From Micromonospora sp. Llam0 (GTDB lineage Bacteria; Actinomycetota; Actinomycetes; Mycobacteriales; Micromonosporaceae): a DNA stretch of 64,000 bases. The notes under the pieces are model-generated. The model made no database searches. It saw only the letters and a list, made by a program, of their open reading frames with translations, and had not been told where the DNA came from. Of this stretch, positions 6,935 through 25,749 are shown one piece after another; position 1 is the stretch's first letter; each line of letters begins with the position of its first letter. The stretch covers positions 372,001 to 436,000 of the forward strand of contig NZ_RJJY01000001.1 in the NCBI RefSeq assembly GCF_003751085.1, given 5' to 3'. A program made the translations under genes and the position numbers.

Positions 6935-6963
6935 TTGACCGGACCTAGACGTTCAACTAATCT
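6935..6963 (+). promoter_or_regulatory. Sigma-70-type promoter of the thiopeptide operon
   Basis: TTGACC (6935-6940) and TAATCT (6958-6963) are separated by exactly 17 bp, close to the housekeeping consensus, about 85 bp upstream of the first precursor gene. The spacer contains GACGTTCAA (6948-6956), which is also found upstream of the ArsR-type regulator at 22561, and an inverted copy GAACGTC lies at 6983-6989. These are candidate operator elements. Confidence 0.6.
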
Positions 6964-7047
6964 CAAGCGCAGCAACAAGCTAGAACGTCAGGTGGAAGTC
7001 AAGGAGCGGCCCAGCGAACGGCTCCCGGGCCGACAAGGAGGTGCGCG

Positions 7048-7236
7048 ATGTTGGCGGAACTGTCGACGACCTGGGATGCCACCCAGGACTACGACCTGGA
7101 CATCGACGTGGACGGGCTGGACCTCGGGCCACTCACCGTCACCGCGATGCGGGACTCGGTGGCACTGCCCGAGACCGGGGCGTCCTCGGCCGGCGACGGC
7201 GGTCGGGCCTCCTGCTCCTGCTGCTACGTCACCTGA
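7048..7236 (+). CDS. Thiopeptide precursor peptide 1 (lactazole-type leader)
   Basis: A 62-residue RiPP precursor. The leader is acidic (YDLDIDVDGLDL) and ends with LTVTAMRDSVALPETGA, closely matching my recollection of the lactazole precursor LazA leader (...RDTVALPENGA before the first core Ser). If cleavage follows that Ala, the core is 17 residues: SSAGDGGRASCSCCYVT. Ser46 would supply one dehydroalanine of the pyridine, and Ser55 (before Cys56) or Ser57 (before Cys58) the other. The core has only three Cys, all near the end, and contains Asp and Arg, unlike typical azole-dense thiopeptides. AAGGAG lies at 7035-7040, 7 nt before the ATG. It is the first gene of the operon. Confidence 0.88.
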   Translation: MLAELSTTWDATQDYDLDIDVDGLDLGPLTVTAMRDSVALPETGASSAGDGGRASCSCCYVT

Positions 7237-7239
7237 TCC

Positions 7240-7263
7240 ACCGGCGCCACCGTCGGCGCCGGT
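7240..7263 (+). other. Hairpin between the two precursor genes
   Basis: ACCGGCGCC (7240-7248) and GGCGCCGGT (7255-7263) form a perfect 9-bp stem with a 6-nt loop just after the stop of precursor gene 1. There is no T-tract, so it is more likely an RNA processing or stability element than a full terminator. Confidence 0.4.
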
Positions 7264-7316
7264 CACCGACGTCCTCGCCGACCGTGCGGGGCGAACCTCT
7301 CCGAAAGGTGCATCAC

Positions 7317-7505
7317 ATGTCCGACGAAATCATCGACGTCGAAGACCTCGAGCTGGACGAGCTGTCGGTCAGCTCCATCCGCGACTCGGCCGCGCTGCCC
7401 GAGACCGGTGCCTCCTCCGGCTCGTCGAGCTGCAGCTCCAGCTCCTGCTGCGGCGCCAGCTCCTGCTGCGCCTCCTGCGCCGAGGTCGAGCAGTCGGCGC
7501 TCTGA
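7317..7505 (+). CDS. Thiopeptide precursor peptide 2 (Ser/Cys-rich core)
   Basis: A 62-residue precursor paralogous to precursor 1. The leader is acidic (IIDVEDLELDELSVSSIRD) and ends SAALPETGA at residue 32. The remaining 30 residues are the presumed core: it starts SSGSSSC, contains 14 Ser and 6 Cys, and ends ASCAEVEQSAL. The Ser53-Cys54-Ala-Glu segment aligns with the Ser12-Cys13-Ala-Gln segment I recall at the pyridine position of lactazole. That pairing (core Ser1 with core Ser21) would give a very large macrocycle; Ser43-Cys44 (core Ser11) would give a conventional 29-membered ring. The ribosome-binding site GAAAGG lies at 7303-7308. Each precursor gene has its own ribosome-binding site. 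Confidence 0.9.
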   Translation: MSDEIIDVEDLELDELSVSSIRDSAALPETGASSGSSSCSSSSCCGASSCCASCAEVEQSAL

Positions 7506-7594
7506 CGCCAACCACCGCCCCGACCGAGGGCACCACCGGCAGTGTCAGGGATTGCCGGTAGCCGAGGCAGGGCGAATCACGTCAGTTCGATCGA

Positions 7595-7623
7595 GCGGAG
7601 GGGGCGCGGTGCGCCCCCTCCGC
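7595..7623 (+). terminator. Strong hairpin (attenuator) after the precursor genes
   Basis: GCGGAGGGGGCGC (7595-7607) pairs perfectly with GCGCCCCCTCCGC (7611-7623) around a 3-nt loop. It sits between precursor 2 and the exporter gene and lacks a T-tract. Such hairpins after RiPP precursor genes commonly limit read-through and protect the short precursor transcript, so precursor outnumbers enzymes; that role is inferred. Confidence 0.6.
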
Positions 7624-7647
7624 GCGTCACATGCCCAAGGAGTGCTC

Positions 7648-8577
7648 GTGGAAGTCTTCGCCCGTCTCGACAGCGTCACCAAGACGTACGGCAAGGTGGT
7701 CGCGCTCGACGCGGTCTCCCTCGTGGTGCCCGCCGGGGTCACCGCCGTGCTCGGCCCCAACGGTGCCGGCAAGTCCACCATGATCGAGATCCTCGCCGGT
7801 CTGCGCCGCCCCGGATCGGGCCGGGTCGAGGTGCTCGGCGGGGACCCCGCCGACGTACGGATCAAGGGCCGCCTCGGCCTCACCCCGCAACGGACCGCCC
7901 TGCCCTGGCGGCTCACCGTCGCCGAGACCCTCGCCCTGGTCGCCGCCCACTACCCGGACCCGGTGCCCCGCGCCGACCTGGTCGACCAGCTCGGCCTCGG
8001 CCCGTTCCTGACCAAACGGTGCGGCAGCCTCTCCGGCGGCCAGCGCCGCCGGGTCGCCCTGGCCACCGCCCTGGTCGGCCGCCCCGAACTGCTCTTCCTC
8101 GACGAGCCGACCACCGGCCTCGACGCCGACAGCCGCGACGGACTGTGGACCGCGATCGCCGACGTCGCCGCCACCGGCAGCGCGGTGCTGCTCACCACCC
8201 ACGACATGGCCGAGGCCGAACACCTCGCCGAACAGGTCGTGGTGGTCACCGGCGGGCAGATCGCCCGCACCGGTGCGGTGACCGAGGTGGTCGCCGAGGT
8301 CGGGCTGCACCTGGTCGACATCGAAGTAGCCGGCGCGCTGCCGCCGATCGCCGTCTCCGGTCCCGCCGACCGGGTGGAGACCGTCGGCAACCGGACCCAC
8401 ATCTACACCGCCGACCCGGACGCCACCGTCCGGGCACTGGTCCGCGCCGAGGTGCCGTTCACCGGCATCCGGGTCGAACGGGTCGGCCTGGAGGAAGCGA
8501 TCCGCACGATCAGCAGGTCCACCGACCCGGGTGCCGTCACCCGGCCCGGGATCCGCGTTGCCGAGAAGGTGGCCTGA
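7648..8577 (+). CDS. ABC transporter ATP-binding protein (RiPP exporter/immunity)
   Basis: A 309-residue ATPase. Walker A GPNGAGKST, signature LSGGQRRRVALA, Walker B LLFLDEPTTGLD and H-loop TTHD are all intact. The C-terminal 80 residues resemble the regulatory tail of drug/bacteriocin exporter ATPases. GTG 7648 is chosen because AAGGAG (7637-7642) lies 5 nt upstream. The permease gene starts 1 bp after the stop, so the two form a two-component exporter. Its position directly behind the precursors suggests export of, or self-protection from, the mature thiopeptide; the lactazole cluster as I recall it has no dedicated exporter. Confidence 0.92.
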   Translation: MEVFARLDSVTKTYGKVVALDAVSLVVPAGVTAVLGPNGAGKSTMIEILAGLRRPGSGRVEVLGGDPADVRIKGRLGLTPQRTALPWRLTVAETLALVAAHYPDPVPRADLVDQLGLGPFLTKRCGSLSGGQRRRVALATALVGRPELLFLDEPTTGLDADSRDGLWTAIADVAATGSAVLLTTHDMAEAEHLAEQVVVVTGGQIARTGAVTEVVAEVGLHLVDIEVAGALPPIAVSGPADRVETVGNRTHIYTADPDATVRALVRAEVPFTGIRVERVGLEEAIRTISRSTDPGAVTRPGIRVAEKVA

Positions 8578-8578
8578 C

Positions 8579-9334
8579 ATGCGCTACGTCCTGCTGCACG
8601 CCCGCGCGCACGCCCTCGACACGCTGCGGATGCCCGCCTACTGGGCCCCGGCGCTGGGCTTCCCGCTGGTCTTCTTCCTGCTGTTCGGGCTGGTCAACGC
8701 CAACCGCTTCGCCGACCTCGGGTTGGGCAGCGAATACGCGATCACCCCGTTCCTGCTCTACACCACGCTCAACGTCACGGTCGCCTCGCTCGCCGCCGGC
8801 GTCGCCGCCGACCGGGAGAACCCGTGGGAACAGCGGCTGCGGCTGCTGCCACTGTCCCCGCTGACCCGGTTCGCCGGCCGGCTGGTCTACGTCCTCGGCT
8901 TCAACGTGGTCAGCTGGATTCCGCTGCTGGTCGTCGCCGCGTTCACCACCGACCTGCGGCTGCCGCTGGTGGCCTGGCCGGTCTGGCTCGGCGCGGTGGT
9001 GCTCGGCGCCGTCCCGTTCGGCCTGCTCGGGATGGCGATCGGCTACCGGTTCGCCCCGCAGCCGGCGATGATGCTGGCCAACCTGCTGTTCATGCTGCTG
9101 GCGTTCTTCGGCGGGCTGTTCGTGCCGATCGACTTCCTGCCATCGGCGCTGCACGCCGTGGTGCCGTACGTGCCGACCTACCAGTACCAGTACTTCGTGC
9201 TGGCGCTGATCGACCGGGCCGACCACCTGATCGGGCCGAGCTGGATCGCTTTCCTGCTGCTGGGCTGGACGGCCCTGTTCGCCCTGCTCGCCCGCGCCGC
9301 GTTCCGGCGCGACGAGGGGGTGCGGTACGGATGA
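8579..9334 (+). CDS. ABC-2 type transporter permease
   Basis: A 251-residue integral membrane protein with about six hydrophobic segments (for example YWAPALGFPLVFFLLFGLV, FLLYTTLNVTVASLAAGVAA, AMMLANLLFMLLAFFGGLFV), as expected for an ABC-2 permease. It follows the ATPase gene by 1 bp and overlaps the glutamyltransferase gene by 4 bp (ATGA). It likely forms the membrane half of the thiopeptide exporter. Confidence 0.9.
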   Translation: MRYVLLHARAHALDTLRMPAYWAPALGFPLVFFLLFGLVNANRFADLGLGSEYAITPFLLYTTLNVTVASLAAGVAADRENPWEQRLRLLPLSPLTRFAGRLVYVLGFNVVSWIPLLVVAAFTTDLRLPLVAWPVWLGAVVLGAVPFGLLGMAIGYRFAPQPAMMLANLLFMLLAFFGGLFVPIDFLPSALHAVVPYVPTYQYQYFVLALIDRADHLIGPSWIAFLLLGWTALFALLARAAFRRDEGVRYG

Positions 9335-12006
9335 GCGAGGCCGCCGTCGTCCCGGCCACCGCCGACCGGCGGCCGGCGACCGACCCCACCCTGGCGCCGT
9401 ACGCGCTGGTCCGGCTGGCCGCGCTGCCGTACCCGCCGACCCCGGACGGTGCCCGTGAGTTCCGTGCCGCGCTGCGCCGGCTGGTCGAGCTACGGTCGCG
9501 GATCACCGAGCTGGCCCCCCGGCTCGCCGACGCGCTCTACGCCAGCGCCGACGGACACCCGGCCGACTTCCACCGCAAGGCGGTGCTGCCGCTGCGCCGC
9601 GACGTGCACAACGGACGGCTGCCCCGGCCGGACCGGGTCGCCGAACTCGGCGGCCTGCTCGACCGGGTGCCCGACCTGCCGGCCTGGCTGGCCGTCATGC
9701 GCGAGGCCGCGCAGGTGCGCGCCGAACTCGGTGAGCTGGCCACCGGCGCGCTCGGCGCGGAACGCGCCGCGCTCGCCGAGGTCTGCGCCGCCGAACCACT
9801 GCGCCGCGCGGTCACCCTCACCGGCGCCGACCTGCTACGCGGGATCGACCGGGCGGCCGCCAGCGGGGCCAACCCGGACAGCCGGGCCCGCAAGTCCGAA
9901 CCCAACGCGCTGCGCTACGCGCTGCGGGCCACCGCGAAGACCAGCCCGCTGTCCTGGTTCACCTACGTCGCCTGGGGCACCTGGACCGGGGCGTCAGAAT
10001 CGGCCGGCGGTGCCGTACCGGCCGACGACGCGGCCTCGGTCGGCGGGCAGCCGGTGGCCGTCGCCCAGGCCAACCGGACCCTGCTGGCCCGGCTGCTCGC
10101 CGCGGTGATCGCGGACCCCGGGCTGCGGGACACGGTGCCGCACCGGCTGGCCGCCGCGATCACCGTCACCGGTGACCAGTTGACGTTCCGTCGGGACCGC
10201 CCGGTGCAGGGCGTCGACCGGGTCATCTCGGTGCTGGAGGAGGAGGTGCAGCTCGCCTGCACCGGACCGCTGCGGCTGCTGCTCGACCGGACCCGGGCCG
10301 CCGGGCCGGCCGGCGTCACCCCCGGCGACCTGGTCGCCGAACTGGCCCGCCGGCTGCCCGGCGGTCCGCCGCGGACCACCGCCGCCGCGACCCGCTACGT
10401 CGGGCAGGTGCTCGACGCCGGGCTGCTGCTCGCCGTCGAACCCGTCGACCCGCAGGACCCGCAGGCGGTACGGCACCTCGCCGACTGGCTGGACCGGCAC
10501 CACCGCGGCGACCTGGCCGACCTGCTCGTCGCGATCGACGAGCAGACCAGCGGCTTCGGAGCCGTCGCGGCCGGTGACCGGGCCGCCGCCCTGGGCCGGC
10601 TGCGCGACACCTGGCGCTCGGCGTACCAGGCGGTGGGCCTGCCCTGGTACGACGCGCCGGTACTGGCCGAGGACGTGGCGCTGCCCGAACCGGTCCGGTT
10701 GGGCCGTTCCTACGGACGTGCCGCCGCCGACCGGCTGCCCCGGCTGGCCGGGCTGGTCGAACTGTTCGACCAGTACCTGCCGCTGCGTCGGCTGGTCCGG
10801 GACCGCTTCGTCGCCCGGTACGGCGTCGGTGGACGCTGCGAGCGCGCCGCCGACTTCTCCACCGAGATGAGCCAGGTGTGGCGGGCGTACAACCTGGTCT
10901 CGCCGTCCGGGGTGATCAACCCCGACCCCGAGTTCGCCGACCTGGTCACCCCGGCGCTACGGGAGCTGGCCGACATCCGGGCCCGACTGCTGGCCCGGAT
11001 CCGGGCGGCGGCGCCGACCGACGCGGTCGAGTTCAGCCTGCCCGAGGAGATCGTCCGGGACGCGTCTGCGGCGCTGCCGGCCTGGGTCACCGCCCGGCCC
11101 GCCTCGTACGCGTTCTTCGTCCAGCCGGCCCGCCGCGACTACGACGACCTGCTGGTGCTCAACCACGTGTACGCCGGCTGGGGCCGGTTCACCAGCCGGT
11201 TCCTGGACCTGGTGGCACCGCAGGCGAAGACGCAGCTGGCCGCGCAGATCCGGGCCACCGCCGGGCGGCACGCCCAGGTGGCGCAGTTCCGCCCGGTCAC
11301 CGGGTTCAACGCCAACCTGCACCCGTTGCTGGTCGACCACGAGGTGGGCGAGGACGGCCGGTGGGCCGACCTGCTCGCCGACCGGGTCGGGCTGCGCCAC
11401 GACCCGGTCACCGACCAGGTGCGGCTGGTCCGCGACGACACCGGCGCCGACCTGGACGTGCTCTACCTCGGGTTCCTCGTCCCGTTCGTGATGCCGGACC
11501 GGACCGTACCGCTGCACTTCGACCTCAGCAGCGGACTGGTCGGCCCCGGCCTGCTGGCCCCGACCGGCGAACTGGCCGGTGCCCGGCACCGGACCCGGCT
11601 GCGATACCACGACCTGGTACTCAGCCGGCGGTCCTGGACGTTGCCGACCGACGCCGCCCAGCGGCTGCGCGCCGACCTGGACGCCGACGGCGACGTGCCG
11701 TTCGACGCGGTCAGCAGCTGGCGGGCCCGGCTCGGCCTGCCCGCCGAGGTGTTCGTCGCCGCCGCCGGCGTCGACGTACGCGGCGGCCCGGACGACTACC
11801 AGCGTTACCTGTCGCTGCCGAAACCGCAGTACGTCGACCTGGACAACGCCCTGCACCTGCGGAACCTGCCCCGGCTGCTGGGCCGCCACGACGGTCCGGT
11901 GCGGATCGAGGAGGCGCTGCCGGTGCCGGGGAGCGGCAGCCCGCACGGGCGGGTCGTCGAGCTGGTCGCCGAAACCTATCGGAAGGGGTGGGGCGGCCAT
12001 GACTGA
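9331..12006 (+). CDS. Lantibiotic dehydratase N-terminal family, tRNA-Glu-dependent glutamyltransferase (LazB/TbtB type)
   Basis: An 891-residue LanB N-terminal-domain protein. In thiopeptide pathways this stand-alone form transfers Glu from glutamyl-tRNA to core Ser/Thr side chains, and a separate small domain then eliminates glutamate to give Dha/Dhb. Visible family features include the basic segment SRARKSEPNALRYALRAT followed by KTSPLSWFTYVAWG (about residues 189-219), and the C-terminal FNANLHPLLVD and LHFDLSSGL motifs. The elimination (SpaB_C) domain is absent, as expected for split thiopeptide dehydratases. The ATG overlaps the permease stop, and the stop region overlaps the next gene, so it is translationally coupled. 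Confidence 0.92.
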   Translation: MSEAAVVPATADRRPATDPTLAPYALVRLAALPYPPTPDGAREFRAALRRLVELRSRITELAPRLADALYASADGHPADFHRKAVLPLRRDVHNGRLPRPDRVAELGGLLDRVPDLPAWLAVMREAAQVRAELGELATGALGAERAALAEVCAAEPLRRAVTLTGADLLRGIDRAAASGANPDSRARKSEPNALRYALRATAKTSPLSWFTYVAWGTWTGASESAGGAVPADDAASVGGQPVAVAQANRTLLARLLAAVIADPGLRDTVPHRLAAAITVTGDQLTFRRDRPVQGVDRVISVLEEEVQLACTGPLRLLLDRTRAAGPAGVTPGDLVAELARRLPGGPPRTTAAATRYVGQVLDAGLLLAVEPVDPQDPQAVRHLADWLDRHHRGDLADLLVAIDEQTSGFGAVAAGDRAAALGRLRDTWRSAYQAVGLPWYDAPVLAEDVALPEPVRLGRSYGRAAADRLPRLAGLVELFDQYLPLRRLVRDRFVARYGVGGRCERAADFSTEMSQVWRAYNLVSPSGVINPDPEFADLVTPALRELADIRARLLARIRAAAPTDAVEFSLPEEIVRDASAALPAWVTARPASYAFFVQPARRDYDDLLVLNHVYAGWGRFTSRFLDLVAPQAKTQLAAQIRATAGRHAQVAQFRPVTGFNANLHPLLVDHEVGEDGRWADLLADRVGLRHDPVTDQVRLVRDDTGADLDVLYLGFLVPFVMPDRTVPLHFDLSSGLVGPGLLAPTGELAGARHRTRLRYHDLVLSRRSWTLPTDAAQRLRADLDADGDVPFDAVSSWRARLGLPAEVFVAAAGVDVRGGPDDYQRYLSLPKPQYVDLDNALHLRNLPRLLGRHDGPVRIEEALPVPGSGSPHGRVVELVAETYRKGWGGHD

Positions 12007-13183
12007 CGCCCTCGACATCGTCAGCTACTACTATTCGCCGACCAAGCTGCCGCTGCTGCGCTCGGCGGTGCTGCCGGCCGCCCGGTGGGCCGCCGGGCAG
12101 GGGGTCGCCGTACACCTGGAACGGCACTGGCTGCACGGCCCGCACCTGCGGATCCGGCTGGCCCGCCGGGACCAGGGCGACCCGGCGGACCTGGCGGTGG
12201 TCGCCGCCGCGGTCGCCCACCGGCTGCGCGGGCACCTCGCCGAGCGGCCCAGCACCGAGCAGATCAGCGTCGCCGACCTGCTGGCACAGGCCGAACAGGC
12301 CGGCCGGATCGAACTGGTGCCGCCGCCGTACCAGCCGATCCACCCGGACAACACGGTCCGCGTCGAGCCGGTGGACGACAGCGCGATGGCCACCCTGTTC
12401 GGCTCCGCTGAGGCCGTCGAGTGCCGCGCCGAGCTGCTGCGCCTCGGGGTGCCGGCGGTCAGCGCCGCCGCCGACCGGTTGGCCGCCGCCGGTGACAGCG
12501 CCGCCGCCCGGGTACGGACCTGCCTGACCGCGATGGCGCTGCACGCCAGCCGCTATCCGCTCGGGCTCGGCAACGGTCACCAGTCGTTCCTGTCGCACCT
12601 GGAGGAGTTCCTGGTGCTCAACGACCCGGACGGCCGGGCACGGGCGGCGTTCGACGCCCAGTGGCGGCGCTCCGCCGACTCGGCGACCGCCCTGGTCGCC
12701 CGGCTGGCCGCCCCGACGGACGCGGCAGGCTCGGGGCCGGAGTCGGGTCCGGGCCTGGACCCGGCCGAACGCGGGTGGGAACAGTGGACGGTGTCCGCCG
12801 CCGAGGTGACCGGGGCCGCGTACCAGCGGGGTGAGCTGCCCCGGGTGCCGGCGTTCAGCTACCTCGACCGGGCCGAGCAGATCGGCGACCCGGACACGGT
12901 ACGGCGCTGGCATCCGGACCGGACCGAGTACAGCGAGTACCACCAGCTGCTGCGGCAGATCGACTTCGACCGGGTCCCGTACGAGCGGGAGTTCGTCACC
13001 TACCGGTTCGCCACCAACGTGCTCTACCTGCTGCTCGGCCTGCTGGACGTCCGGCCGACCGAGCGCTATCTGGCCGCCTACCTGCTGAGCCGGGCGGCGG
13101 AGCGGATCACCGGGATCACCTGGCAGGAACGGATCAACGGCTACCTGACCAGGCTGGCCGCGACCGCGCAGGAGGTGGCGTGA
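11999..13183 (+). CDS. SpaB_C-domain protein, probable thiopeptide pyridine synthase (LazC/TbtD type)
   Basis: A 394-residue thiopeptide-type bacteriocin biosynthesis domain protein. It begins DIVSYYYSPTK and has the family motif WLHGPHLRIRL near residues 41-51; near the C-terminus is YHQLLRQIDFDRVPYEREFVTY. In lactazole and thiomuracin pathways a stand-alone SpaB_C protein carries out the formal [4+2] cycloaddition of two dehydroalanines and releases the leader. The second SpaB_C domain of this operon is fused to the dehydrogenase (18380-20167), so by analogy this one is the pyridine synthase and the fused one the glutamate eliminase. The assignment rests on architecture, not on diagnostic residues. 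Confidence 0.82.
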   Translation: MTDALDIVSYYYSPTKLPLLRSAVLPAARWAAGQGVAVHLERHWLHGPHLRIRLARRDQGDPADLAVVAAAVAHRLRGHLAERPSTEQISVADLLAQAEQAGRIELVPPPYQPIHPDNTVRVEPVDDSAMATLFGSAEAVECRAELLRLGVPAVSAAADRLAAAGDSAAARVRTCLTAMALHASRYPLGLGNGHQSFLSHLEEFLVLNDPDGRARAAFDAQWRRSADSATALVARLAAPTDAAGSGPESGPGLDPAERGWEQWTVSAAEVTGAAYQRGELPRVPAFSYLDRAEQIGDPDTVRRWHPDRTEYSEYHQLLRQIDFDRVPYEREFVTYRFATNVLYLLLGLLDVRPTERYLAAYLLSRAAERITGITWQERINGYLTRLAATAQEVA

Positions 13184-15141
13184 TGAGCCCTCGGCCCTCG
13201 ACCGCCGAAGCCGGTCCCGCCGACCTCACCGTGACCCACCCCGCCGTGGCCGAACGCGCCGTGCCGTCGGCGGCGGAGATCGTCGTGCGGCTGCGGCCGG
13301 TGGTGTTCGCCACCCCGACCGTCACCGGAGTGCACGTACGCGGCTGGTCGTCGAGCTTCACCGTCAGCGGCGGCGCCGGGGTGTGGAAGGTGTGGCAGGT
13401 CCTCGCCCGACACCTGGCCGGCGGGCTGACCCCGCAGCGGCTGGCACAGCCGGCCGGACGGCCCGAGGTGGACCGGGTCATCCGACTGCTCCTCGACCAA
13501 CTGCGGGAACACGACATGCTGGTCGAGGTGCCGGCCGGCTGGGGCGACCGGGAGGAACCGGATCTGCCGCCGGCCGACCTGGCCCGCTGGCTGGAGTCGG
13601 TGGCAGCCGACCCGGCGGCGGCCTGGCAGCGGCTGCGGTCGACCACCGTCACCGTTGCCGGCACCGGTGCGGTGGCGACGTCTGCGGCCCGCACGCTGAC
13701 CGGCGCCGGCCTGGCCGTCGACCCGGTCGGCGACGCGACCACCCAGGACACCGTGGTACGGGCCGGCGAGGCGGCGGTCGCGGCCCGCTGCCTGCCGGAG
13801 ATCGGGTACGTGACCCCGGTCGACCGGCCGGACCAGGCGCTGACCCACGGCGCGGCGGTCGCGGCCCGACTGTCCCGCGAGACCGGCCCGGCGCTGGCGG
13901 ACGGGCCGGTGGCACCGGCCCTGGCCGCGCTGATCGGGGCCGCCGCGGCGCACCGCATCGTCTGCGCCGTCGCCGGCCTGCCCGACCCGGCCGAGGAGGC
14001 GGCCACCCTGCCCGGCGGCGAACCGGCCGCCCCCGGGCCGCACTACCCGTCGGTCCTGGTCGCCCGACTCGACCCGGTCCGGGCCACATACCACCCGTGG
14101 CTGCCGGCCGCCCGCGTGCCGCTGCCCGGCGGGCCGGCCGACATCGACGCGGTCGGGCTGCGGCTGGCAGCGTTGAGCGACCCGGAGCTCGGCGTACTGC
14201 CGCCGGCGGTCCCCGGCGACCTGCCGCAACTGCCGGCGATGCTGGCCCTGGCCGGCCCGGCGCTGGGGGTCGCGGCCACCGCCGACGCCGCCCGGGTCGA
14301 CGCCACCCTGCGGTACGCCGAGACCGTCCTCGGTCTCGGCGCACCGCGCGGCGACGGCGACGCGCGGGACGCCGGTGCCGGGGACGGTGCCGGGTCAGCG
14401 GTCCGCTGGACGGAGACGGCCGCGATCGGCGTCGACGCCCGGCACGCCAGCGGGGCGGCGCTGCGCCGACTGGTGCACGCCGTACACAGCCGACTCGACA
14501 CCGACCCGGTGCCGGAGGCCGAGTGGGCCGGCGAACCGGCGGCGCGCCGCTGGTGGAAGGCGCTCACCCTGCGGTTCGCCGTACCGGCGCGGGCGGTGGC
14601 CCGCCGGCTGCCGGCCGGCGCGGTACACGCCGAGATCGTCACCGACGCCGGGCCGCTGGCCTGGGCGGTGGAGGCCACCGCCGCCGACGCGGTGGCGATG
14701 GCGGCGCTGGCCGCCACCGGCGTCGCACAGGCCCGCGCCGCCGGGGTCGAGGTGCCGGCCGGGCCGGCGAGCCTGACCGGCGCGGCACCGACCTGGCGGC
14801 CGGCCGACCAGCACCTGGCACCGTGGACGGACGACAGCTGGTACTGGCCGGCCGGGGTGATCGACAACGAGGAGCGGTTGCAGGCGGCGCTGCGGTCCGC
14901 GCTCACCGCCGACGGCGCGACCCTGACCGGGCGGCCGGTGGTGCCGGTCACCGCCGGCACCGGTCCCGCCGACGCGCACCCCGACGCCGACTCGGTCGTC
15001 CACGCGCTGGCCGTCACCGGTTTCGTGGCGCAGGGCCTCCGGTGGATCGCGACCACCGTCACTGCCGACTCCGTCACTGCCGACTCCGTCACTGCCGACT
15101 CCGTCACTGCCGACTCCGCCACCGCGAGCCGAGGAGCCTGA
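13183..15141 (+). CDS. RRE / E1-like (Ocin-ThiF-like) cyclodehydratase partner protein (LazD/TbtF type)
   Basis: A 652-residue partner protein of YcaO. The N-terminal ~90 residues (VVRLRPVVFATPTVTGVHVRGWSS region, then a helical segment) fit a RiPP recognition element that binds the leader. Around residues 145-170 a Rossmann-like TVTVAGTGAVATSAA marks the ThiF/E1-like fold, without an obvious adenylation active site. The C-terminus is a low-complexity tail encoded by four tandem 15-bp repeats (TADSV units). ATG 13183 overlaps the upstream stop (TGATG) and has AGGAGG at 13170-13175; GTG 13180 is an alternative. It is expected to deliver the precursor to the YcaO enzyme encoded 3 bp downstream. 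Confidence 0.82.
   Translation: MSPRPSTAEAGPADLTVTHPAVAERAVPSAAEIVVRLRPVVFATPTVTGVHVRGWSSSFTVSGGAGVWKVWQVLARHLAGGLTPQRLAQPAGRPEVDRVIRLLLDQLREHDMLVEVPAGWGDREEPDLPPADLARWLESVAADPAAAWQRLRSTTVTVAGTGAVATSAARTLTGAGLAVDPVGDATTQDTVVRAGEAAVAARCLPEIGYVTPVDRPDQALTHGAAVAARLSRETGPALADGPVAPALAALIGAAAAHRIVCAVAGLPDPAEEAATLPGGEPAAPGPHYPSVLVARLDPVRATYHPWLPAARVPLPGGPADIDAVGLRLAALSDPELGVLPPAVPGDLPQLPAMLALAGPALGVAATADAARVDATLRYAETVLGLGAPRGDGDARDAGAGDGAGSAVRWTETAAIGVDARHASGAALRRLVHAVHSRLDTDPVPEAEWAGEPAARRWWKALTLRFAVPARAVARRLPAGAVHAEIVTDAGPLAWAVEATAADAVAMAALAATGVAQARAAGVEVPAGPASLTGAAPTWRPADQHLAPWTDDSWYWPAGVIDNEERLQAALRSALTADGATLTGRPVVPVTAGTGPADAHPDADSVVHALAVTGFVAQGLRWIATTVTADSVTADSVTADSVTADSATASRGA
15061..15120 (+). 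repeat. Four tandem 15-bp repeats at the 3' end of the E1-like gene
   Basis: The unit ACTGCCGACTCCGTC occurs four times in direct succession; the last copy has GCC instead of GTC. The repeats are in frame and encode TADSV x4, a low-complexity tail that is probably variable in copy number between strains. Confidence 0.9.
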
Positions 15142-15144
15142 ACC

Positions 15145-17094
15145 ATGTCGACCCGTACCGTTGCGACCCCGACCGACGATCTCGCGGCGGCGCTGGCCGC
15201 CGCCGGTCACCCGACCGTCCCGGTGCTGGACGCCGCGACGGCGCTGGACGCGGTGGCGGCGCCAGGCGGCACCGGCGGCCGGACCGCGGTCGTCCTGCTG
15301 GACCACTGGACCCCGGCACTGGCCGCACAGCTGAGCCGCCGGGCCTGGGAGACCGCCGCGACGGTCGTCCCGGTCCGTCTCGACGGCGGCCTGGTGCTGG
15401 TCGGCCCGGTGCTGCGGCCGAGAGCCGGCACCTGCCTGGCCTGCGCCGAGCAGGCCCGGCTGCGGGTGTTCGGGCCGGGCGTGCCGAGCCGGGACCCGCA
15501 GCTGCGGCAGGGCGGAGTCATCCCGCCGAGCCTGCTGCCGATGGTGGCCGGCACGGTCGGCGACGCGCTGACCGACCCGGGCCGGTTGGACGCGACGGTG
15601 GTGGCGATCCGCACCGACCACGCCACTGTCAGCAGCCACCGGGTCCGGCCCCGACGGCAGGGCTGCCGGATCTGCCGGCCGGTGCCGTTGGACACCCCGC
15701 ACGGTGCCGAGGTGCCGCTGACCGCCGCCCCGACCAGCGACCCGTACTCGCTGCGCGGCGACAACCCACGGACCAGCCGGGCCGCGTTGCGCGCCGAACT
15801 GTTCGACTGGCGGCACGGGCCGGTCGCCCACATGATCCGCACCGAGCGGTCGCCGATGGCGCTGAGCACCAGCGAACTGTCCAGCGACACGGCGGTCCGC
15901 GAGGCCGGCTACGGCCGGGCCCGCAGCTTCGCCGAGTCGGAGCGGATCGCCCTGTTCGAGGCGGTCGAGCGGGCCACCGGGATGCGGCCGCACCGGCGGC
16001 GTACCGCCGTCGAAGCGGCCTTCGTCGACCTCGGCCCGGACCGGGCGGTCGACCCGGCCCGGCTCGGCCTGCACGACCCGGCGCACTACGACCACCCGGC
16101 GTTCCGGATGGTGCCGTACACGCCGCAGACCCGGGTGCGCTGGGTGCACGGCTGGTCGCTGGGCCGCCGCCGCCCGCTGCTGGTACCCGAGCACGTCGCC
16201 TACTGGGGACTGCACCGCAGCGACGGCCCCCGGTTCCTCTACGAGAGCTCCAACGGCTGCGGGCTGGGCAACAGCGCCGTCGAAGCCGCGCTGTACGGCA
16301 TGTACGAGGTCGCCGAACGGGACGCGTTCCTGATGGCCTGGTACGCGCGGACCCCGCTGCGGCCGGTCGCCGTACCCGACGACGACCCGGTGCTGCCGCA
16401 CCTGGTCGACCGGCTCGACACGGTCGGCTACGACCTGCTGTTCTTCGACGCCACCAACGACCTCGGGGTGCCGACCGTGCTGGCCCTGGTGCTGCACCGC
16501 GACCCGACCAGCGGCGCCCCGCAGGCGTTCTTCGCCGCCGGTGCCCATCCGGACCCCCGGTCGGCGCTGCGATCGGCGGCGGCCGAGGCGGTGGTCGACG
16601 TGTTCAGCCTGCCCGAGGTGGCCCGCAACAAACCCGGCCATCTGGACCCGGATCGGCTGCAGGCCATGTTCGACGACCCCCGGCTGGTCACCGGCCTGGA
16701 GGAACACGTCGCGGTGAACACCCTGCCGCAGGCCCGGCAGCGGTACGAGTTCCTGCTCACCGGCGACGCACCGGCGCACTGGCGGGACGTCTGGCCGGGC
16801 CGCCCGGCCCCGGTGACCGACCTCGCGGCGCTGCTCGGCGAGACCGTCGAGCGGTGGGCGGCGGACGGCCTGGAGGTGATCGTGGTGGACCAGACCGACC
16901 CGGCGAGCCGGGACCGGCTGGGACTGCACTCGGCGAAGGTGATCGTCCCCGGCACGTTGCCGATGACGTTCGGCCACGTGCACCACCGCACCCGGGGCCT
17001 GGACCGGCTGCTGCGGGTCCCGGCCCAGCTGGGCCGGCTGCCGTCCCCACTCGACTACTCCGACCTGCCCCTCTATCCGCACCCGTTCCCGTGA
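15145..17094 (+). CDS. YcaO-domain azoline cyclodehydratase (LazE/TbtG type)
   Basis: A 649-residue enzyme that uses ATP to cyclise core Cys (and perhaps Ser) to azolines. The first ~200 residues are E1-like with a CxxC pair (CLACAEQ near 92-95) and a second pair (CRIC near 174-177), probably a structural zinc site. The YcaO domain follows, with the ATP/Mg motifs SFAESERIALFEAVERATGM (about 253-272) and GNSAVEAALYGMYEVAERDA. The protein ends in PLYPHPFP, the Pro-rich PxPxP-like C-terminus typical of RiPP YcaO cyclodehydratases. It starts 3 bp after the E1-like partner gene and is the azole-forming core of the pathway. Confidence 0.93.
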   Translation: MSTRTVATPTDDLAAALAAAGHPTVPVLDAATALDAVAAPGGTGGRTAVVLLDHWTPALAAQLSRRAWETAATVVPVRLDGGLVLVGPVLRPRAGTCLACAEQARLRVFGPGVPSRDPQLRQGGVIPPSLLPMVAGTVGDALTDPGRLDATVVAIRTDHATVSSHRVRPRRQGCRICRPVPLDTPHGAEVPLTAAPTSDPYSLRGDNPRTSRAALRAELFDWRHGPVAHMIRTERSPMALSTSELSSDTAVREAGYGRARSFAESERIALFEAVERATGMRPHRRRTAVEAAFVDLGPDRAVDPARLGLHDPAHYDHPAFRMVPYTPQTRVRWVHGWSLGRRRPLLVPEHVAYWGLHRSDGPRFLYESSNGCGLGNSAVEAALYGMYEVAERDAFLMAWYARTPLRPVAVPDDDPVLPHLVDRLDTVGYDLLFFDATNDLGVPTVLALVLHRDPTSGAPQAFFAAGAHPDPRSALRSAAAEAVVDVFSLPEVARNKPGHLDPDRLQAMFDDPRLVTGLEEHVAVNTLPQARQRYEFLLTGDAPAHWRDVWPGRPAPVTDLAALLGETVERWAADGLEVIVVDQTDPASRDRLGLHSAKVIVPGTLPMTFGHVHHRTRGLDRLLRVPAQLGRLPSPLDYSDLPLYPHPFP

Positions 17095-17102
17095 GGTCGG
17101 CC

Positions 17103-18383
17103 ATGTCGTCCAGTCAGCTCACCGCCAGTCAGGTCAGCGCCGATCAGCCCAGCGCTACGCAGCTCACCACCAGTCAGCTCACCGCCACGCTCGCCGAGGT
17201 GTACGCGCACGGCCCCGGCAAGGACGTCCGGCCCGCGTCGGCGCGGCCGTACCGTCGCCGGCCCACCGGCCCGGCCGTGTCGTTCGGCGAGCTGGCCGCC
17301 GTCGCCGGGCCGACCGGTGCCCGGCTGGTCCGGACACTCGGTACAGCGCTGGCGCCGCGCCGGTTCGAACCGTGGAACGGCTTCAACGAGCACCGGGCGT
17401 ACCCGTCGCCCCGGGCGGCGCACCTGGTCGACGTGCTGCTGCGGCACGACGGCGTCGACTGGCTGGTCGACCCGGTCCGCGAACTGCTGTATCCGACGTC
17501 CGCTGAGTCGCCCGTCGCAGCGCCGGACGGGGCGGTCGAGCTGGTGCTGCGGGAGCAGCCGACGCGGATGCCGGCCGGCTACGGCCGGCTCGCCGAGGCG
17601 CTGGCCGCGCTGGAGGCCGGTCACGTCGCCGGCGCGCTCGCCGAGGCCGCCGCCGGCCACGGACTGCGGTACGCCGCCGGCACCACCGCCAGCGCCACCG
17701 CCACCGCCACCTGCGGGCCCTGGCTCACCGTCACCCTCGGACCGTCGACCGCCCCCACCTGGTCACGGCACCGGCTGCGGGCGGTACGCAGCTCCGGGCT
17801 GAGCCCACGCGGGTTCGGCGCGGACCCCCGGCCGCTGCCGGCGGAGGCGTTCGAGCGGCTGGTCGCCGCCGCGTACCGGCCGCCGGCCGGGTCACCGGTG
17901 ACCGGGGTGCGCCTGCGGCACACCCTCGCGGTCGGCAACGTCGCCGACCGGGCGGCCGGCTGGTACCGCCTCGACCCGGCCGCGACCGGCCGAGGCGGGG
18001 CTGCTGCGCCGCAGCCGACCCGGCCGGGCGACGCGACCGGGCAGGTGCAGCGGGCGTACAGCTATCCGCGTACCGAGGTCGACGTCGCCGGCATGCCGCT
18101 GGCCTGGCTGGTCAGCGCCGACGTGCCGGCCGCGGTCCGCGTCGGCGGCCCGGCGGCGTACCGGCGGCTGCTGCACGCGGCCGGTGCCGCCGCCCAGCAC
18201 GTCGGCACCGCCGCCGCCGAGGTCGGCCTGTTCTGCCGGCCGGTACGCGCGGTGCGGGAGGCCGCCGCCGAGGCGGCCGCGGGTCTGCCCGCCGGGCACG
18301 ACCTGATCTACCTGTTGTTGATCGGCCGGTCACGGGTGCGTGACTTCGCCTACGACCTGAGCAACCCGGAGGTGTCGCCGTGA
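17103..18383 (+). CDS. SagB/nitroreductase-like protein of the thiopeptide operon
   Basis: A 426-residue protein with a divergent nitroreductase (SagB/McbC) fold signature. An N-terminal half contains RAYPSPRAAHLVDVLL and VDWLVDPVRELLYP, like the YPS-gg-LHP region of SagB. A second unit contains LRAVRSSGLSPRGFGADPRPLP and ends AAAQHVGTAAAEVGLFCRPV...DLIYLLLIGRSR, like the FMN-binding C-terminal part. The first 30 residues are a Ser/Gln/Thr-rich repeat (SQLTASQ). The six-gene lactazole pathway has no counterpart as I recall it. It could be a second azoline dehydrogenase, a scaffold, or an oxidoreductase acting on one of the precursors. It overlaps the next gene by 4 bp. Confidence 0.6.
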   Translation: MSSSQLTASQVSADQPSATQLTTSQLTATLAEVYAHGPGKDVRPASARPYRRRPTGPAVSFGELAAVAGPTGARLVRTLGTALAPRRFEPWNGFNEHRAYPSPRAAHLVDVLLRHDGVDWLVDPVRELLYPTSAESPVAAPDGAVELVLREQPTRMPAGYGRLAEALAALEAGHVAGALAEAAAGHGLRYAAGTTASATATATCGPWLTVTLGPSTAPTWSRHRLRAVRSSGLSPRGFGADPRPLPAEAFERLVAAAYRPPAGSPVTGVRLRHTLAVGNVADRAAGWYRLDPAATGRGGAAAPQPTRPGDATGQVQRAYSYPRTEVDVAGMPLAWLVSADVPAAVRVGGPAAYRRLLHAAGAAAQHVGTAAAEVGLFCRPVRAVREAAAEAAAGLPAGHDLIYLLLIGRSRVRDFAYDLSNPEVSP

Positions 18384-20167
18384 CCGCCCCGACCATCACC
18401 GCCACCACCACCCGCACCTGGGTGGGCCTGCACTGTTTCGCCTACTGGTCGCCGGCCGACCTGGACACTTTCCTGGCGGTGACCGTGGCGCCGCTGCTGG
18501 CCCGGCTGCGCGCCGACGGCGCGATCGCCGACTGGTTCTACATCCGCTACTGGGAGGGCGGGCCGCATCTGCGGATCCGAGTTCGGGACCCGCTGCCGGG
18601 CGTCGGCGACCGGTTGCGGGCGGAGCTGGCCGAACTCGCCGGCCAGGCGCCGTACGAGGTGTTCACCATGGACAGCGGCAACTACTACCGGCGGTTGGGT
18701 GGCAGCGCCGCCCGGTCGGCCGCCGGCTGGCACGACCACGGCGACGTCCGGGAGATCCCGTACCGGCCGGAGACCGCCCGGTACGGCGGACCGCAGGCAC
18801 TGCTGGTCGCCGAGGACGTCTTCTGCCGGTCCAGCGAGATCGCCGCCCGGATCGTCGGCGCGGTCCCGCCCGGCCCGGCCCGGTTGTCCGTCGCCGCCGA
18901 GCTGGCCACCGCGACCGCCGCCGCGTTGGGCCTGGACGAGTTGGGTGCCGCCCGGTGGCTGCGTGGCCACGCAGCCGGTTGGCGGTGGCAGAACGAGGTG
19001 GCGATGCTGCCGGCCGCGGCGGTGCAGGGGCAGGCGGCCCGGGTACTGGCCAGCCAGGGTGCCGCGCTGCGCCGCCGGTGGGACCGGACGGTGGCCCGGG
19101 TCGACGCGCAGCGTACCGACGCCGCCGCCGACCTGGCGGGGGAGCGGTCGCCGGCCGGGTACTGGGCGCAGGTCGTCCGGGCCGCCCGGGACGCGTTGGA
19201 GGGGCCGGCCGCCGCCGGCCCGGCCGACCAGCGGTGGCGTTGGGTGTGGGGCTCCCAGCTGCACATGCTGTTCAACCGGCTGGGCATCCTGCCGGACGAG
19301 GAGCGGTCGGTGTGCTGGCTGGTCGCCGGGACCGCGCTGGCGCCGGGCGGGCCGGCGGACTTCTTCGCCGACGGGGCGGCGGCCGCCGACCGCCGCTACC
19401 ACGAGGCGAGCAAGTTCCTGCCGGGAATGTTGCAGACGCAGAGGCCGCGCGAGGCCGTCTCGGAACGGAGCGGGACCCCGTTCCGGTTCGGCGGCCGGCC
19501 GGTTCCTCTGCCCGCCGGGGACCCGCCGCGTGCCGCGCTCGCTGATGTGCTGCGCCGGCGGGTCTCCGGTCGGGGGCGGCTGACCGGGCCGGTCACCGCC
19601 GAGCAGCTGGGCACCCTGGTGTGGAGCGCGCACGGGGTGACCCACCGCAGCCAGGTGCCGCTGTCCAACGGGGACCTGTACGACTACGCCCACCGCCCGT
19701 ACCCGAGCGCCGGTGCGGCGTACGCGGCGCGGATGCGGCTGATCGTGCGCGACGTCGACGGCGTCGCCCCCGGCGCGTACCACGTCGACGACCTCGACCG
19801 GCAGCTGTGGCGGCTCGGGCCGGCCCCGTCGGTGCCGGAGCTGGAGGCGTCGTCGATGTGGTTCGGGGCGGACGCCCTCGACGTCGGCGGGATCGAACTG
19901 GCCGAGGTGCCGGCCCTGCTCGGGCTCTACGTGCAGCTGGGTGAGCTGCGGGAACGCTACGGGATGCGGGCGCTGCGGTTCGCGGTGGCGGAGGCGGGTC
20001 ACCTGGCGCAGGCGCTGTCGATGGTGGCGGCGGCGAGCGGGCTGGCGCTCGGCATGATCGGCGGCTTCTACGACGACGTCGCCCACGAACTGCTCGGCCT
20101 GGACGGCATCGACGACGTGCTGGTCTACCTGCTGCCGGTGGGTCGTTTCCCGGGAGGTGCGCGGTGA
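18380..20167 (+). CDS. Fused SpaB_C glutamate eliminase and SagB-type azoline dehydrogenase (LazF type)
   Basis: A 595-residue bifunctional protein. Residues 1 to about 335 are a SpaB_C/thiopeptide-type domain (WVGLHCFAYWSPADLDTF; YIRYWEGGPHLRIRV), expected to remove glutamate from glutamylated Ser/Thr. Residues about 345-595 are an FMN-dependent SagB-type nitroreductase domain (RRRVSGRGRL, RPYPSAGAAYAARM, GGFYDD and LVYLLPVGR), expected to oxidise azolines to azoles. The same fusion is characteristic of LazF in the lactazole pathway. It starts at GTG 18380 overlapping the upstream stop, and its own stop overlaps the regulator frame (GTGA). Confidence 0.9.
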   Translation: MTAPTITATTTRTWVGLHCFAYWSPADLDTFLAVTVAPLLARLRADGAIADWFYIRYWEGGPHLRIRVRDPLPGVGDRLRAELAELAGQAPYEVFTMDSGNYYRRLGGSAARSAAGWHDHGDVREIPYRPETARYGGPQALLVAEDVFCRSSEIAARIVGAVPPGPARLSVAAELATATAAALGLDELGAARWLRGHAAGWRWQNEVAMLPAAAVQGQAARVLASQGAALRRRWDRTVARVDAQRTDAAADLAGERSPAGYWAQVVRAARDALEGPAAAGPADQRWRWVWGSQLHMLFNRLGILPDEERSVCWLVAGTALAPGGPADFFADGAAAADRRYHEASKFLPGMLQTQRPREAVSERSGTPFRFGGRPVPLPAGDPPRAALADVLRRRVSGRGRLTGPVTAEQLGTLVWSAHGVTHRSQVPLSNGDLYDYAHRPYPSAGAAYAARMRLIVRDVDGVAPGAYHVDDLDRQLWRLGPAPSVPELEASSMWFGADALDVGGIELAEVPALLGLYVQLGELRERYGMRALRFAVAEAGHLAQALSMVAAASGLALGMIGGFYDDVAHELLGLDGIDDVLVYLLPVGRFPGGAR

Positions 20168-20676
20168 GCCCGCGACCGGCCGACGGTGCCAGGTTCACAG
20201 ACGGTGCCAGTTTTACAGACGGTGCAGCCCCCGACCGTCAGGGAACGTCGGGGGCTGTGTCCAGTGTGCCACGGCAACCCGGGTCCGCGCGACCGCCCGG
20301 CGGCACCGATCCGCCGACCCCGGCGGTACGGGTGCTCGACGGCGTCAATCAGCTGCGCGCCGTCGCCGATCCGATCCGGTTGCGGGTGCTCGCGGTGCTC
20401 ACCGCCGAGCCGGACCGGGCGCTGTCCGCCCGCCAACTGGCCCACCAGCTGGGCATCACGTTCAGCCTGATGCACTACCACCTGCGGGTGTTGTCCGAGG
20501 AGGGGATGATCCGGGTGGTCAACCAGCGGACCGATCAGGGCCGGGCGGAGCGGTACTTCCAGGCCGCGCAGTTGGCGCTGCGGTGGGACTTCCCGCCGGC
20601 CGACCGGGCCGGCGACGACGTGGCGCCAGCGGACCGGGCCGGCGACGACGGGTCAGACGGGAAGCAGGCCGGATGA
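20164..20676 (+). CDS. ArsR-type winged-helix regulator at the end of the thiopeptide operon
   Basis: A protein of up to 170 residues. The HTH core is VNQLRAVADPIRLRVLAVL...ARQLAHQLGITFSLMHYHLRVLSEEGMIRV, an ArsR-like winged helix without an obvious metal site. GTG 20164 overlaps the dehydrogenase stop, but the first 30 codons consist of an 18-bp repeat and an 11-bp hairpin, so the real start may be GTG 20257 or 20266. The C-terminal region has a duplicated PADRAGDD segment. It is similar in its HTH to the regulator at 22561 and overlaps the convergent radical SAM gene by 24 bp. It probably regulates this cluster. Confidence 0.8.
   Translation: MSPRPADGARFTDGASFTDGAAPDRQGTSGAVSSVPRQPGSARPPGGTDPPTPAVRVLDGVNQLRAVADPIRLRVLAVLTAEPDRALSARQLAHQLGITFSLMHYHLRVLSEEGMIRVVNQRTDQGRAERYFQAAQLALRWDFPPADRAGDDVAPADRAGDDGSDGKQAG
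20182..20226 (+). repeat. 18-bp direct repeats, candidate operator
   Basis: GACGGTGCCAGGTTCACA (20182-20199), GACGGTGCCAGTTTTACA (20200-20217) and a partial third copy GACGGTGCA (20218-20226) run in direct succession just after the dehydrogenase stop. Spacing of 18 bp and the position ahead of the regulator fit an autoregulatory operator, but the repeats could simply be coding. Confidence 0.45.
20225..20257 (+). terminator. Hairpin downstream of the dehydrogenase gene
   Basis: CAGCCCCCGAC (20225-20235) pairs perfectly with GTCGGGGGCTG (20247-20257) around an 11-nt loop, with no long T-tract. It may end the thiopeptide operon or attenuate read-through into the regulator, which would support a regulator start at or after 20257. 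Confidence 0.45.
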
Positions 20677-22014
20677 GCGGACGAACAGGTCGATCCGGCC
20701 GGCCAGGTTCTCCTTCATCGGTGGGCACGGTGCGGTGCCCTCCCGCCACAGTTTCGGGCAGGCGCCGCCGCACACCGGCAGGATCGGGCAGCCCTGGCAG
20801 CCGGTCTCGCCGGCGCGCAGCCCGGTGTACCAGTCGTCGAACTGGCCGGTCGGCCGCAGCTGGTCGACCGGTGCCCGGTCCACGGTGTCCAGATGCTGTT
20901 CGGTGAAGCCGGGCACCAGCGGCTGTTCGGTGCAGGAGTAGATCCGCCCGTCCGGGGCGATCACCTCGCTGTGCCGGGAGACGGCGGTGCACACCACCCG
21001 TACCGGGTGGGTGGGCAGCAGCCGGCAGTGCAGTCCGGCGGCGAGGTAGGCGGCGTACCAGCGCAGTTCGGTCTCGGCGGCCTGCTGCTGGCGCAGCCGT
21101 ACCTCGCTGACGTCGTTGCCCCACGAGTGCACCGGCGCCGGGTAGAACCGGATCCGGGGGTCGGCGAGGCCGGCGTCGCGCATCGCCGCAGCGAACTCGT
21201 CGGCCCGGTCGGCGTTGTGCCGGCCGATGTTGGTCCGTACGGTCACCTGCAGCCCGGCCAGCTCCGGATCGGTGAGCACGGTACGCAGCGCCGTGGTGAT
21301 CCGGTGGAAGGAACTCTGTCCACTGTTCAACGGCCGGGCGGCGTCGTGCACCTCCGCCGGCCCGTCGATGGTGATCTCCATCCGGTCGACCCGGCAGTCC
21401 AGATGCAGGGTACGCAGCTTGCGGGCGTCGAGCAGGGCACCGTTGGTGACCAGCATCGCCGAGTAGCCGACCCGGTGCCGGTCGGCGGCGGCCACGAACC
21501 GGGCGGACAGCGAGCGGAGTACCGCGTACCCCATCAGGGGTTCGCCGCCGAACCACCGCACCACCACGGTGTCGTGCTCGCCGCTGGCCATGGCGTGTTC
21601 GACCCGGGCGGCGATGGCGTCGCGGTGCCGGGTCGGCCGGGTGGCCGGGGTGTCCCGCCGGTGCTCCTGCCCGCAGTAGTCGCAGCCCATGTTGCAGTAG
21701 CCGGTCGGCATCAGTACGAACTGCCGGTGCCGGGCGTCGTCGGCCGCCTGCGCGCCGGCGTCGATCGTCGCGGCGGTCTCGTCGGCGTCGGCGGGCACCA
21801 GCAGGCCGAGTTCGGCGAGCCGGGCCTGTTCGTCGGCGGGCAGGCCGGCCGGGCCGGGGCCGTCCAGGAGGGCCCGCGTGGTGTCGGTGTCGAGCAGGAG
21901 GGTACGGGCCCGTCCGGTGTGGAACACGGCGCGCAGTTGCCGGCCGGACGGGTGCCGGTAGGTGGTCGGACTGAACACGAGGTAGCGGCTGAGCACGAGG
22001 TCGGGCTGGGCCAT
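20653..22014 (-). CDS. Radical SAM/SPASM peptide maturase
   Basis: A 453-residue radical SAM enzyme. The N-terminal ~95 residues (SRYLVFSP; TLLLDTDTTRALLDG) resemble the leader-binding front part of peptide maturases. The CxxxCxxC cluster motif is Cys107, Cys111, Cys114 (YCNMGCDYC), followed by RWFGGEPLM. The C-terminus has SPASM-like Cys clusters (VVCTAVSRHS, YSCTEQP, then GCQGCPILPVCGGACPKLW), enough for auxiliary Fe-S clusters. A 63-residue peptide gene lies directly upstream on the same strand and is the probable substrate. The modification cannot be read from sequence (C-C, C-O, thioether or epimerisation are all possible). ATG 22014 has GAAAGG 6 nt upstream. Confidence 0.9.
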   Translation of the reverse strand: MAQPDLVLSRYLVFSPTTYRHPSGRQLRAVFHTGRARTLLLDTDTTRALLDGPGPAGLPADEQARLAELGLLVPADADETAATIDAGAQAADDARHRQFVLMPTGYCNMGCDYCGQEHRRDTPATRPTRHRDAIAARVEHAMASGEHDTVVVRWFGGEPLMGYAVLRSLSARFVAAADRHRVGYSAMLVTNGALLDARKLRTLHLDCRVDRMEITIDGPAEVHDAARPLNSGQSSFHRITTALRTVLTDPELAGLQVTVRTNIGRHNADRADEFAAAMRDAGLADPRIRFYPAPVHSWGNDVSEVRLRQQQAAETELRWYAAYLAAGLHCRLLPTHPVRVVCTAVSRHSEVIAPDGRIYSCTEQPLVPGFTEQHLDTVDRAPVDQLRPTGQFDDWYTGLRAGETGCQGCPILPVCGGACPKLWREGTAPCPPMKENLAGRIDLFVRSSGLLPV

Positions 22015-22152: not shown

Positions 22153-22344
22153 TCAGTTGAAGGCACAGGCGAAGTTGACGCTGGAGCTGTCGTCGTGCAT
22201 GCCGGTGCTCTCGGTGGGCAGCTCGAAGACGACCATGCTCTGGCTGGTTGTCTCGTCCGGCTGCTGGGCTTCGACGGCGGCCTGGGTGGCCGGGGCGGCG
22301 ATGGCGATCGCGGCGACGACGGCGAAGAAGGGGTTGGTGGGCAC
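22153..22344 (-). CDS. Candidate radical-SAM RiPP precursor peptide
   Basis: A 63-residue peptide. GTG 22344 has a strong GGAGG 6 nt upstream. Residues 6-23 are hydrophobic and Ala-rich (FFAVVAAIAIAAPATQAA). The middle is acidic/polar (EAQQPDETTSQ), followed by MVVFELPTESTGMHDD and the C-terminus SSSVNFACAFN with a single Cys60 and aromatic Phe58 and Phe62. I recognise no published precursor family. Position ahead of a radical SAM/SPASM gene, short length, good ribosome-binding site and following hairpin all point to a precursor, with the C-terminal part as the likely core (inference). Confidence 0.75.
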   Translation of the reverse strand: MPTNPFFAVVAAIAIAAPATQAAVEAQQPDETTSQSMVVFELPTESTGMHDDSSSVNFACAFN

Positions 22345-25741: not shown

Positions 25742-25749
25742 CAGCGCTC

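Follow-up and report, generated by a model that had tools for sequence, protein, structure and literature searches.

The question raised by this DNA was whether a group of genes near the start of the stretch analysed (64,000 nucleotides of contig NZ_RJJY01000001.1 of Micromonospora sp. Llam0, hereafter the window) encodes a lactazole-like thiopeptide pathway, and which of its features depart from that type. The cluster very probably encodes such a pathway. It is not categorically new. Its variant features are an additional nitroreductase-fold protein, designated X, and a second type of precursor peptide, for which an unusual ring was predicted.

Several results support this reading. Both precursors belonged to a thiopeptide precursor family, the proteins designated B, C, E and F fell into the expected enzyme families, D had RRE, E1-like and YcaO-like folds, and the gene order was kept in six of the seven genomes of the genus.

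Extent and conservation of the cluster

The cluster spanned positions 7048-20676 of the window on the + strand (G000:C1:379048-392676 in the source genome, which is 8.9 Mb in two contigs). The preliminary description, made from the same sequence, had set it at 6935..20167. All the parts that it named were found on the + strand, and its gene list was correct. Its start was about 110 bases too early; the open reading frame (ORF) starting at 6935 runs across the precursor genes in a different frame and is not the start of the cluster. The ArsR-like regulator, which extends to 20676, had been missed. From the permease gene to the regulator gene, all seven junctions were tight, with overlaps of 1-8 bases or gaps of 3-8 bases.

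The pyridine synthase gene was present in six of the seven genus genomes (its own included), all with E <1e-200. The same gene order was found in these six, and core A, the core of the first precursor, was identical in every letter. This put the cluster far beyond chance. Among the matches listed, the closest named relatives of the proteins were from Solwaraspora and Micromonospora. The listing covered the best 120 of 226 pyridine synthase homologues, and 28 sequences were aligned.

One scan of genome contigs gave 74 related loci. The order B, C, D, E, F was also found in Streptomyces loci that bear lactazole-type SWGSCSCQxSSSC cores. In the Catellatospora and Hamadaea loci, SWINTSGNASCSCCYVT or SWVNTSGNASCSCCYVT stood in place of core A.

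Precursor peptides

Precursors A (7048..7236, + strand) and B (7317..7505, + strand) were both 62 aa long and carried RDSVALPETGAS and RDSAALPETGAS. The core of A was SSAGDGGRASCSCCYVT and that of B was SSGSSSCSSSSCCGASSCCASCAEVEQSAL. Pfam Thiopep_pre (PF19409) matched A at 49.1 bits and B at 48.5 bits (cut-off 23.5), and both were above the cut-off of 30 of NCBIfam thiazolyl_B, at 31.5 and 48.6 bits. The residue directly after the leader motif was Ser in 122 of the 122 precursors scanned, as it should be if Ser1 becomes part of the pyridine. Adjacent cysteines were present in both cores, and core B was much longer than the lactazole core.

The number of precursors did not distinguish the cluster. 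The preliminary description had counted two non-identical precursors as a departure from lactazole-type pathways. An automated + strand search of the 74 loci, together with the window, the genomes of the genus and a few others, found two or more cores in 38 of the 77 related loci whose cores could be read, and in 21 of the 42 loci without X. Two precursors are therefore ordinary in this group, and the feature was rejected as novel. Many Streptomyces loci had a pair of cores, the SWGSCSCQxSSSC one and another like SNGGSSCSCGSSSC.

Two Saccharothrix arrangements were also seen. In Saccharothrix obliqua (locus L023, 6470-7258), five lactazole-like precursors stood in tandem before one enzyme set. 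Locus L025 of Saccharothrix sp. NRRL B-16348 had a precursor and a pyridine synthase, and the other laz-type enzymes were absent within its 21 kb; full clusters (L021 and L030) were found elsewhere in that genome.

The cores had been expected to be new. In the open-access literature searched, no paper printed the strings SSGSSSC, GSSSCC, SCSCCYVT or ALPETGAS; either core may yet be identical to a characterised one. Core B was not isolated. At E up to 1, precursor B had 69 homologues among database precursors (hits P0188-P0256), and 66 of these were at E <1e-4. The pattern SSGSSSC..S[TC]CGSSSCC was found in actinomycetes, proteobacteria, Staphylospora and Deinococcus. At least six genera outside the actinomycetes were named: Idiomarina, Teredinibacter, Pseudorhodoferax, Chitinimonas, Staphylospora and Deinococcus. 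Core B shares its pattern with SSGSSSC-type thiazolylpeptide precursors across phyla. A comparison of core B with plasmid records gave no match. The two peptides and the extra oxidase-like enzyme look unstudied, within a known family.

Biosynthetic enzymes

The reference system was the lactazole A pathway (laz) of Streptomyces lactacystinaeus; statements on lactazole here and below draw on its published account (PMC7210931). The two pathways shared a set of five enzymes, for glutamylation, pyridine synthesis, RRE function, YcaO function and an elimination-dehydrogenase fusion. In the window, four of these (B, C, E and F) were recognized by family models and D by predicted structure, which bore out the enzyme set proposed from the sequence.

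Protein B (9331..12006, + strand) was a stand-alone LazB-type Ser glutamylation protein (Lant_dehydr_N; PF04738). Residues 15-872 of its 891 were matched by PDB 6ec7 (TbtB).

Protein C (11999..13183, + strand; PF14028) was LazC/TbtD-like. When the profile of its family was compared with the PDB, the best matches were TbtD and PbtD (5wa3 and 5w98, E 8e-24 and 4e-23). The match to TbtD scored 87.8 bits and covered profile positions 13-368 of 378, with the stretch RHWxxGPHL common to both. The single sequence gave 164.3 bits with the NCBIfam TbtD/PbtD equivalog model (NF045556, TbtD_PbtD_pyrid), and the cut-off of 325 was not reached, a point against the lactazole-like reading. By its sequence, C is a pyridine synthase relative of TbtD/PbtD, not an equivalog. 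The preliminary description would have been refuted by homology placing its SpaB_C proteins outside the thiopeptide clades. The stand-alone one is a relative of pyridine synthases, so this objection did not hold.

Protein D (13183..15141, + strand), in the LazD position, had been labelled an E1-like RRE partner. It had no NCBIfam match at E 0.01 and no Pfam match at E 0.1, and its sequence profile found nothing in the PDB beyond weak matches to ribosomal proteins. Its predicted structure nevertheless supported the label: RRE, E1/ThiF-like and YcaO-like folds were found in one chain by VIA-align comparison. The YcaO-like fold was an addition to the label, and it appeared in the model despite the lack of any YcaO family model matching D.

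A separate YcaO cyclodehydratase, E (15145..17094, + strand), occupied the LazE position next to the RRE-bearing partner; it was matched by PF02624 and, above cut-off, by TIGR03604 and TIGR03882. Protein F (18380..20167, + strand) was LazF-like, with a LanB_C elimination domain (PF14028) and a SagB dehydrogenase domain (PF00881) in one chain; TIGR03891 and TIGR03605 were above cut-off.

The cluster differed from laz in having X, an ABC exporter pair and an ArsR-like regulator, as judged from the paper's description and from relatives. In that description laz is a minimal gene set without ancillary genes, which is not so across the family. Further differences were the adjacent cysteines in both cores and the greater length of core B.

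The exporter pair described earlier was confirmed. It consisted of a DrrA-like ATPase (7648..8577, + strand; PF00005; 189 bits with the drrA model, below its cut-off of 312; start set by the ribosome-binding site) and a DrrB-like ABC-2 permease (8579..9334, + strand; PF01061 and PF12698). The regulator (20164..20676, + strand) was a winged-helix protein (PF12840) whose gene overlapped the stop of F by 4 bases.

X and adjacent cysteines

The extra nitroreductase-like gene noted earlier, X (17103..18383, + strand), proved to be the real difference from classic lactazole-like loci, from which it is absent. It matched PF00881 at 37.8 bits, and both the structure model and the fold matches gave a tandem nitroreductase-fold protein. 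The nearest fold was 3eo7; among the nitroreductases that followed were the azole-pathway oxidases McbC and BmdC. The N-terminal half had invariant Tyr160, Glu171, Gly173 and His174, of which the correspondence to F was judged by eye only. X was found in 2 of 246 genomes of a class-wide sample (its own included) and in 13 of 200 genomes of a family sample.

The presence of X was compared with that of adjacent cysteines in the cores. In a first table, the two features occurred together in 26 loci and were both missing from 42; L082 alone had adjacent cysteines without X. It was then found by profile search to contain an X-like ORF, though a weak one (79 bits). With uniform profile scoring, 27 of 71 loci had both features, 44 had neither and none was discordant; the cysteines were thus adjacent in 27 of 27 loci with X and in 0 of 44 without it. 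The cut of 70 bits for X was fixed after the L082 score was known, and the table was limited to loci with pyridine synthase profile scores of at least 200 bits, a bound set after the failures described below were known. Outside the table were seven loci without a readable core and eight lacking F, for which X was scored as unknown. Three of the latter had adjacent cysteines (L013, L019 and L025) and five did not (L036, L044, L072, L073 and L154).

In a tree of the pyridine synthases (computed in a quick mode that gave long-branch warnings), nine Lentzea loci without X or adjacent cysteines were nested within X-bearing Pseudonocardiaceae (forks 98 and 99, starred). Searches of two whole genomes, those of L056 (Lentzea) and L032 (S. 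tateyamensis), found no X at E 1e-6.

Predictions were also made in advance for eight unseen regions. Three were right (G027, G125 and G065:C10), four were wrong, and one was undecided (G114, which had no precursor). Three of the wrong ones had Cys-rich cores without X (G061, G177 and G079), and the fourth (G137) had an X-like protein of 120 bits without adjacent cysteines. The four were distant loci, at 138-159 bits. A rule for thiopeptides at large was therefore rejected; the association belongs to the lactazole-like clade, where it may reflect plain descent.

Predicted rings

In lactazole, Ser1, Ser10, Ser11, Ser12 and Cys13 are essential, and oxazole11 with dehydroalanine (Dha) 12 may be the minimal unit that the pyridine synthase needs (PMC7210931). 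Core A had Ser1, Ser10, Cys11, Ser12 and Cys13, and thus kept the critical spacing of Ser1, Ser10, azole11, Ser12 and Cys13, with Cys11 replacing Ser11. Ser12 was its sole Ser flanked by azole-capable residues. Because this spacing was kept, core A was predicted by analogy to give a 32-membered ring through Ser12, as in lactazole.

For core B, 72 cores were tabulated (66 from database precursors and 6 from loci, with hits P0254-P0256 excluded). The sequence SSG began 69 cores of at least 19 residues, which comprised 34 distinct ones over the first 19. Ser1, Ser11, Ser17 and Cys19 were invariant in the 34, with one core shifted by an insertion. By the same analogy, core B would most likely give a 47-membered ring through Ser17, which was favoured over a 29-membered ring through Ser11. 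The range of ring sizes stated in 2020 was 26-35 atoms for natural compounds and 14-62 for engineered substrates (PMC7210931), and a size of 47 lies beyond the natural range.

Masses were calculated for the predicted products. Product A would give [M+H]+ 1474.47 with three thiazoles, Dha10 and the pyridine, and 1456.46 or 1438.45 after one or two more dehydrations. Product B, with an untrimmed tail, would fall between about 2373.6 and 2573.8, according to the numbers of azoles and dehydrations. The mass arithmetic was checked with the 16-residue lactazole core. It matched the published m/z values of lactazole A and two variants, 701.20, 692.20 and 710.20 (PMC7210931), within 0.01 (computed 710.21 for the last).

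Alternative explanations

For X, two explanations were weighed. We tentatively propose, at somewhat below an even chance, that contiguous azoles require X, either as a further azoline oxidase or as the partner of an oxidase. That X is not functionally linked to adjacent cysteines, and was co-inherited with them while serving another redox step or as a structural partner, comes close to being as probable as not. Several observations weigh against the functional link. The C-terminal half of X lacked the positions of the SagB Tyr and of the Glu-x-Gly-His motif. X and the cysteines had changed independently only three to four times; in the three independent pairs on starred branches, the cysteines followed X in two and were unchanged in one (sign test, p 0.5). 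Within its 21 kb, locus L025 had a core with adjacent cysteines but lacked X, which was present at two other places in the genome. The failed predictions, in which distant classes broke the rule, were a further point. In addition, the SagB motif was kept in 70 of 70 F sequences (68 loci, as L012 and L116, and L014 and L118, were the same loci fetched twice), so that F alone could oxidise. Co-inheritance is less easily reconciled with the lack of discordance among the 71 loci, the joint absence of X and adjacent cysteines in the nine nested Lentzea loci, and the placing of McbC and BmdC among the nearest folds.

For the products, the equivalog score of C and the long, Ser-rich core B would suit linear azole/dehydroalanine peptides without a pyridine ring, with C serving another purpose. 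Goadsporin is an example of such a linear product. This is very improbable, as the C profile aligned nearly end to end with TbtD and shared RHWxxGPHL, Ser followed the leader in every precursor scanned, and the thiopeptide precursor family matched both precursors. If macrocycles are formed, core B has two candidate pyridine sites, since Ser11 was as invariant as Ser17; this speaks against the 47-membered ring. Closure through Ser11, giving a 29-membered ring and a long tail rich in azoles, is less likely but has a substantial probability. The size of this ring falls inside the natural range of PMC7210931, and Ser11 had azole-capable flanks in 31 of the 34 distinct cores. Ser17 had such flanks in all 34 (one with insertion-shifted numbering), and its GSSSC setting is shared with the second Streptomyces precursors and resembles the ASSSC of lactazole. 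The 47-membered ring through Ser17 remained the favoured prediction.

Proposed pathway

On the analogy of lactazole, one enzyme set would mature the two precursors. The RRE of D would hold the leader shared by both, and the YcaO protein E would close Cys and some Ser to azolines. These would be oxidised to azoles by the SagB domain of F, possibly with X. C would then link Dha1 to a Dha with azoles on both sides, forming the pyridine and expelling the leader, and the ABC pair would export the product. The gene set and its homologies are observed; the chemical steps are inferred from lactazole, and the role of X is likewise inferred.

Neighbouring genes

A radical SAM/SPASM peptide maturase (20653..22014, - strand; PF04055; TIGR04463 at 176.7 bits, below the cut-off of 525) adjoined the cluster and was not counted as a member. 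Its likely substrate was a 63-aa peptide ending in NFACAFN (22153..22344, - strand), with a ribosome-binding site and with position and ending conserved in the genus. Both genes lay near the thiopeptide cluster in the window, in five other genus genomes, in two Catellatospora and in one Hamadaea, in varying orientation. A maturase relative (E 1e-50) was present in 23 family genomes, and in 13 of these the pyridine synthase found nothing at E 1e-15. Within the 13, the closest maturase relatives were 55-57% identical. A Micromonospora pisi-like genome (G016) had the thiopeptide cluster without the maturase. The maturase was therefore rejected as an obligatory member, and it was treated, with its peptide, as a separate peptide system. 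Beside a thiopeptide cluster, the peptides of maturase relatives ended in NFACAFS, NFGCAFS, NFGCGVC or NSGCGFLV; candidate peptides beside relatives that lacked such a cluster ended in NGGCQES, NAGCQER or DGGCHEPGS.

The same genome contained a second thiopeptide-like cluster (L123, G000:C1:5978000-5997999); it includes a YcaO gene, and its precursor ends in SCTTCECSCSCSS. This ending presumably resembles those of nosiheptide and nocathiacin.

Upstream of the cluster, a 1161-aa protein (1909-5394) with a GGDEF domain, an AAA/STAND-like part and TPR repeats was conserved in the genus. The tRNA-Gln(CTG) and tRNA-Glu(CTC) genes lay at 25482-25742, about 5 kb downstream. Glutamylation uses Glu-tRNA; the closeness may be accidental. 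Farther along, an IS4-type transposase gene (45763-47277) stood between a Laminin_G_3 ORF (42528-45659) and an RHS-repeat ORF (47552-51925), in DNA of lower GC. The stretch 42528-51925 looks like an interrupted Rhs-like locus. PADLOC found no defence genes among five proteins of the 41-54 kb region.

Significance

By 2020, lactazole-like clusters made up about half of the predicted thiopeptide clusters (251 of 508), and laz, of no known function, was the only characterised member (PMC7210931). It is unlikely, though worth stating, that X marks an undescribed lactazole-like branch, in which a second tandem flavoprotein enables contiguous oligothiazoles, together with a 47-membered product from a cross-phylum precursor family. 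That X and adjacent cysteines occur together offers a simple way, by genetics, to approach an unexplained enzyme. Should the 47-membered ring prove real, nature makes a ring size that, in the account used here, was reached only with engineered substrates (PMC7210931). The in vitro lactazole system published there and the predictable masses of the cores make both X and the ring size directly testable.

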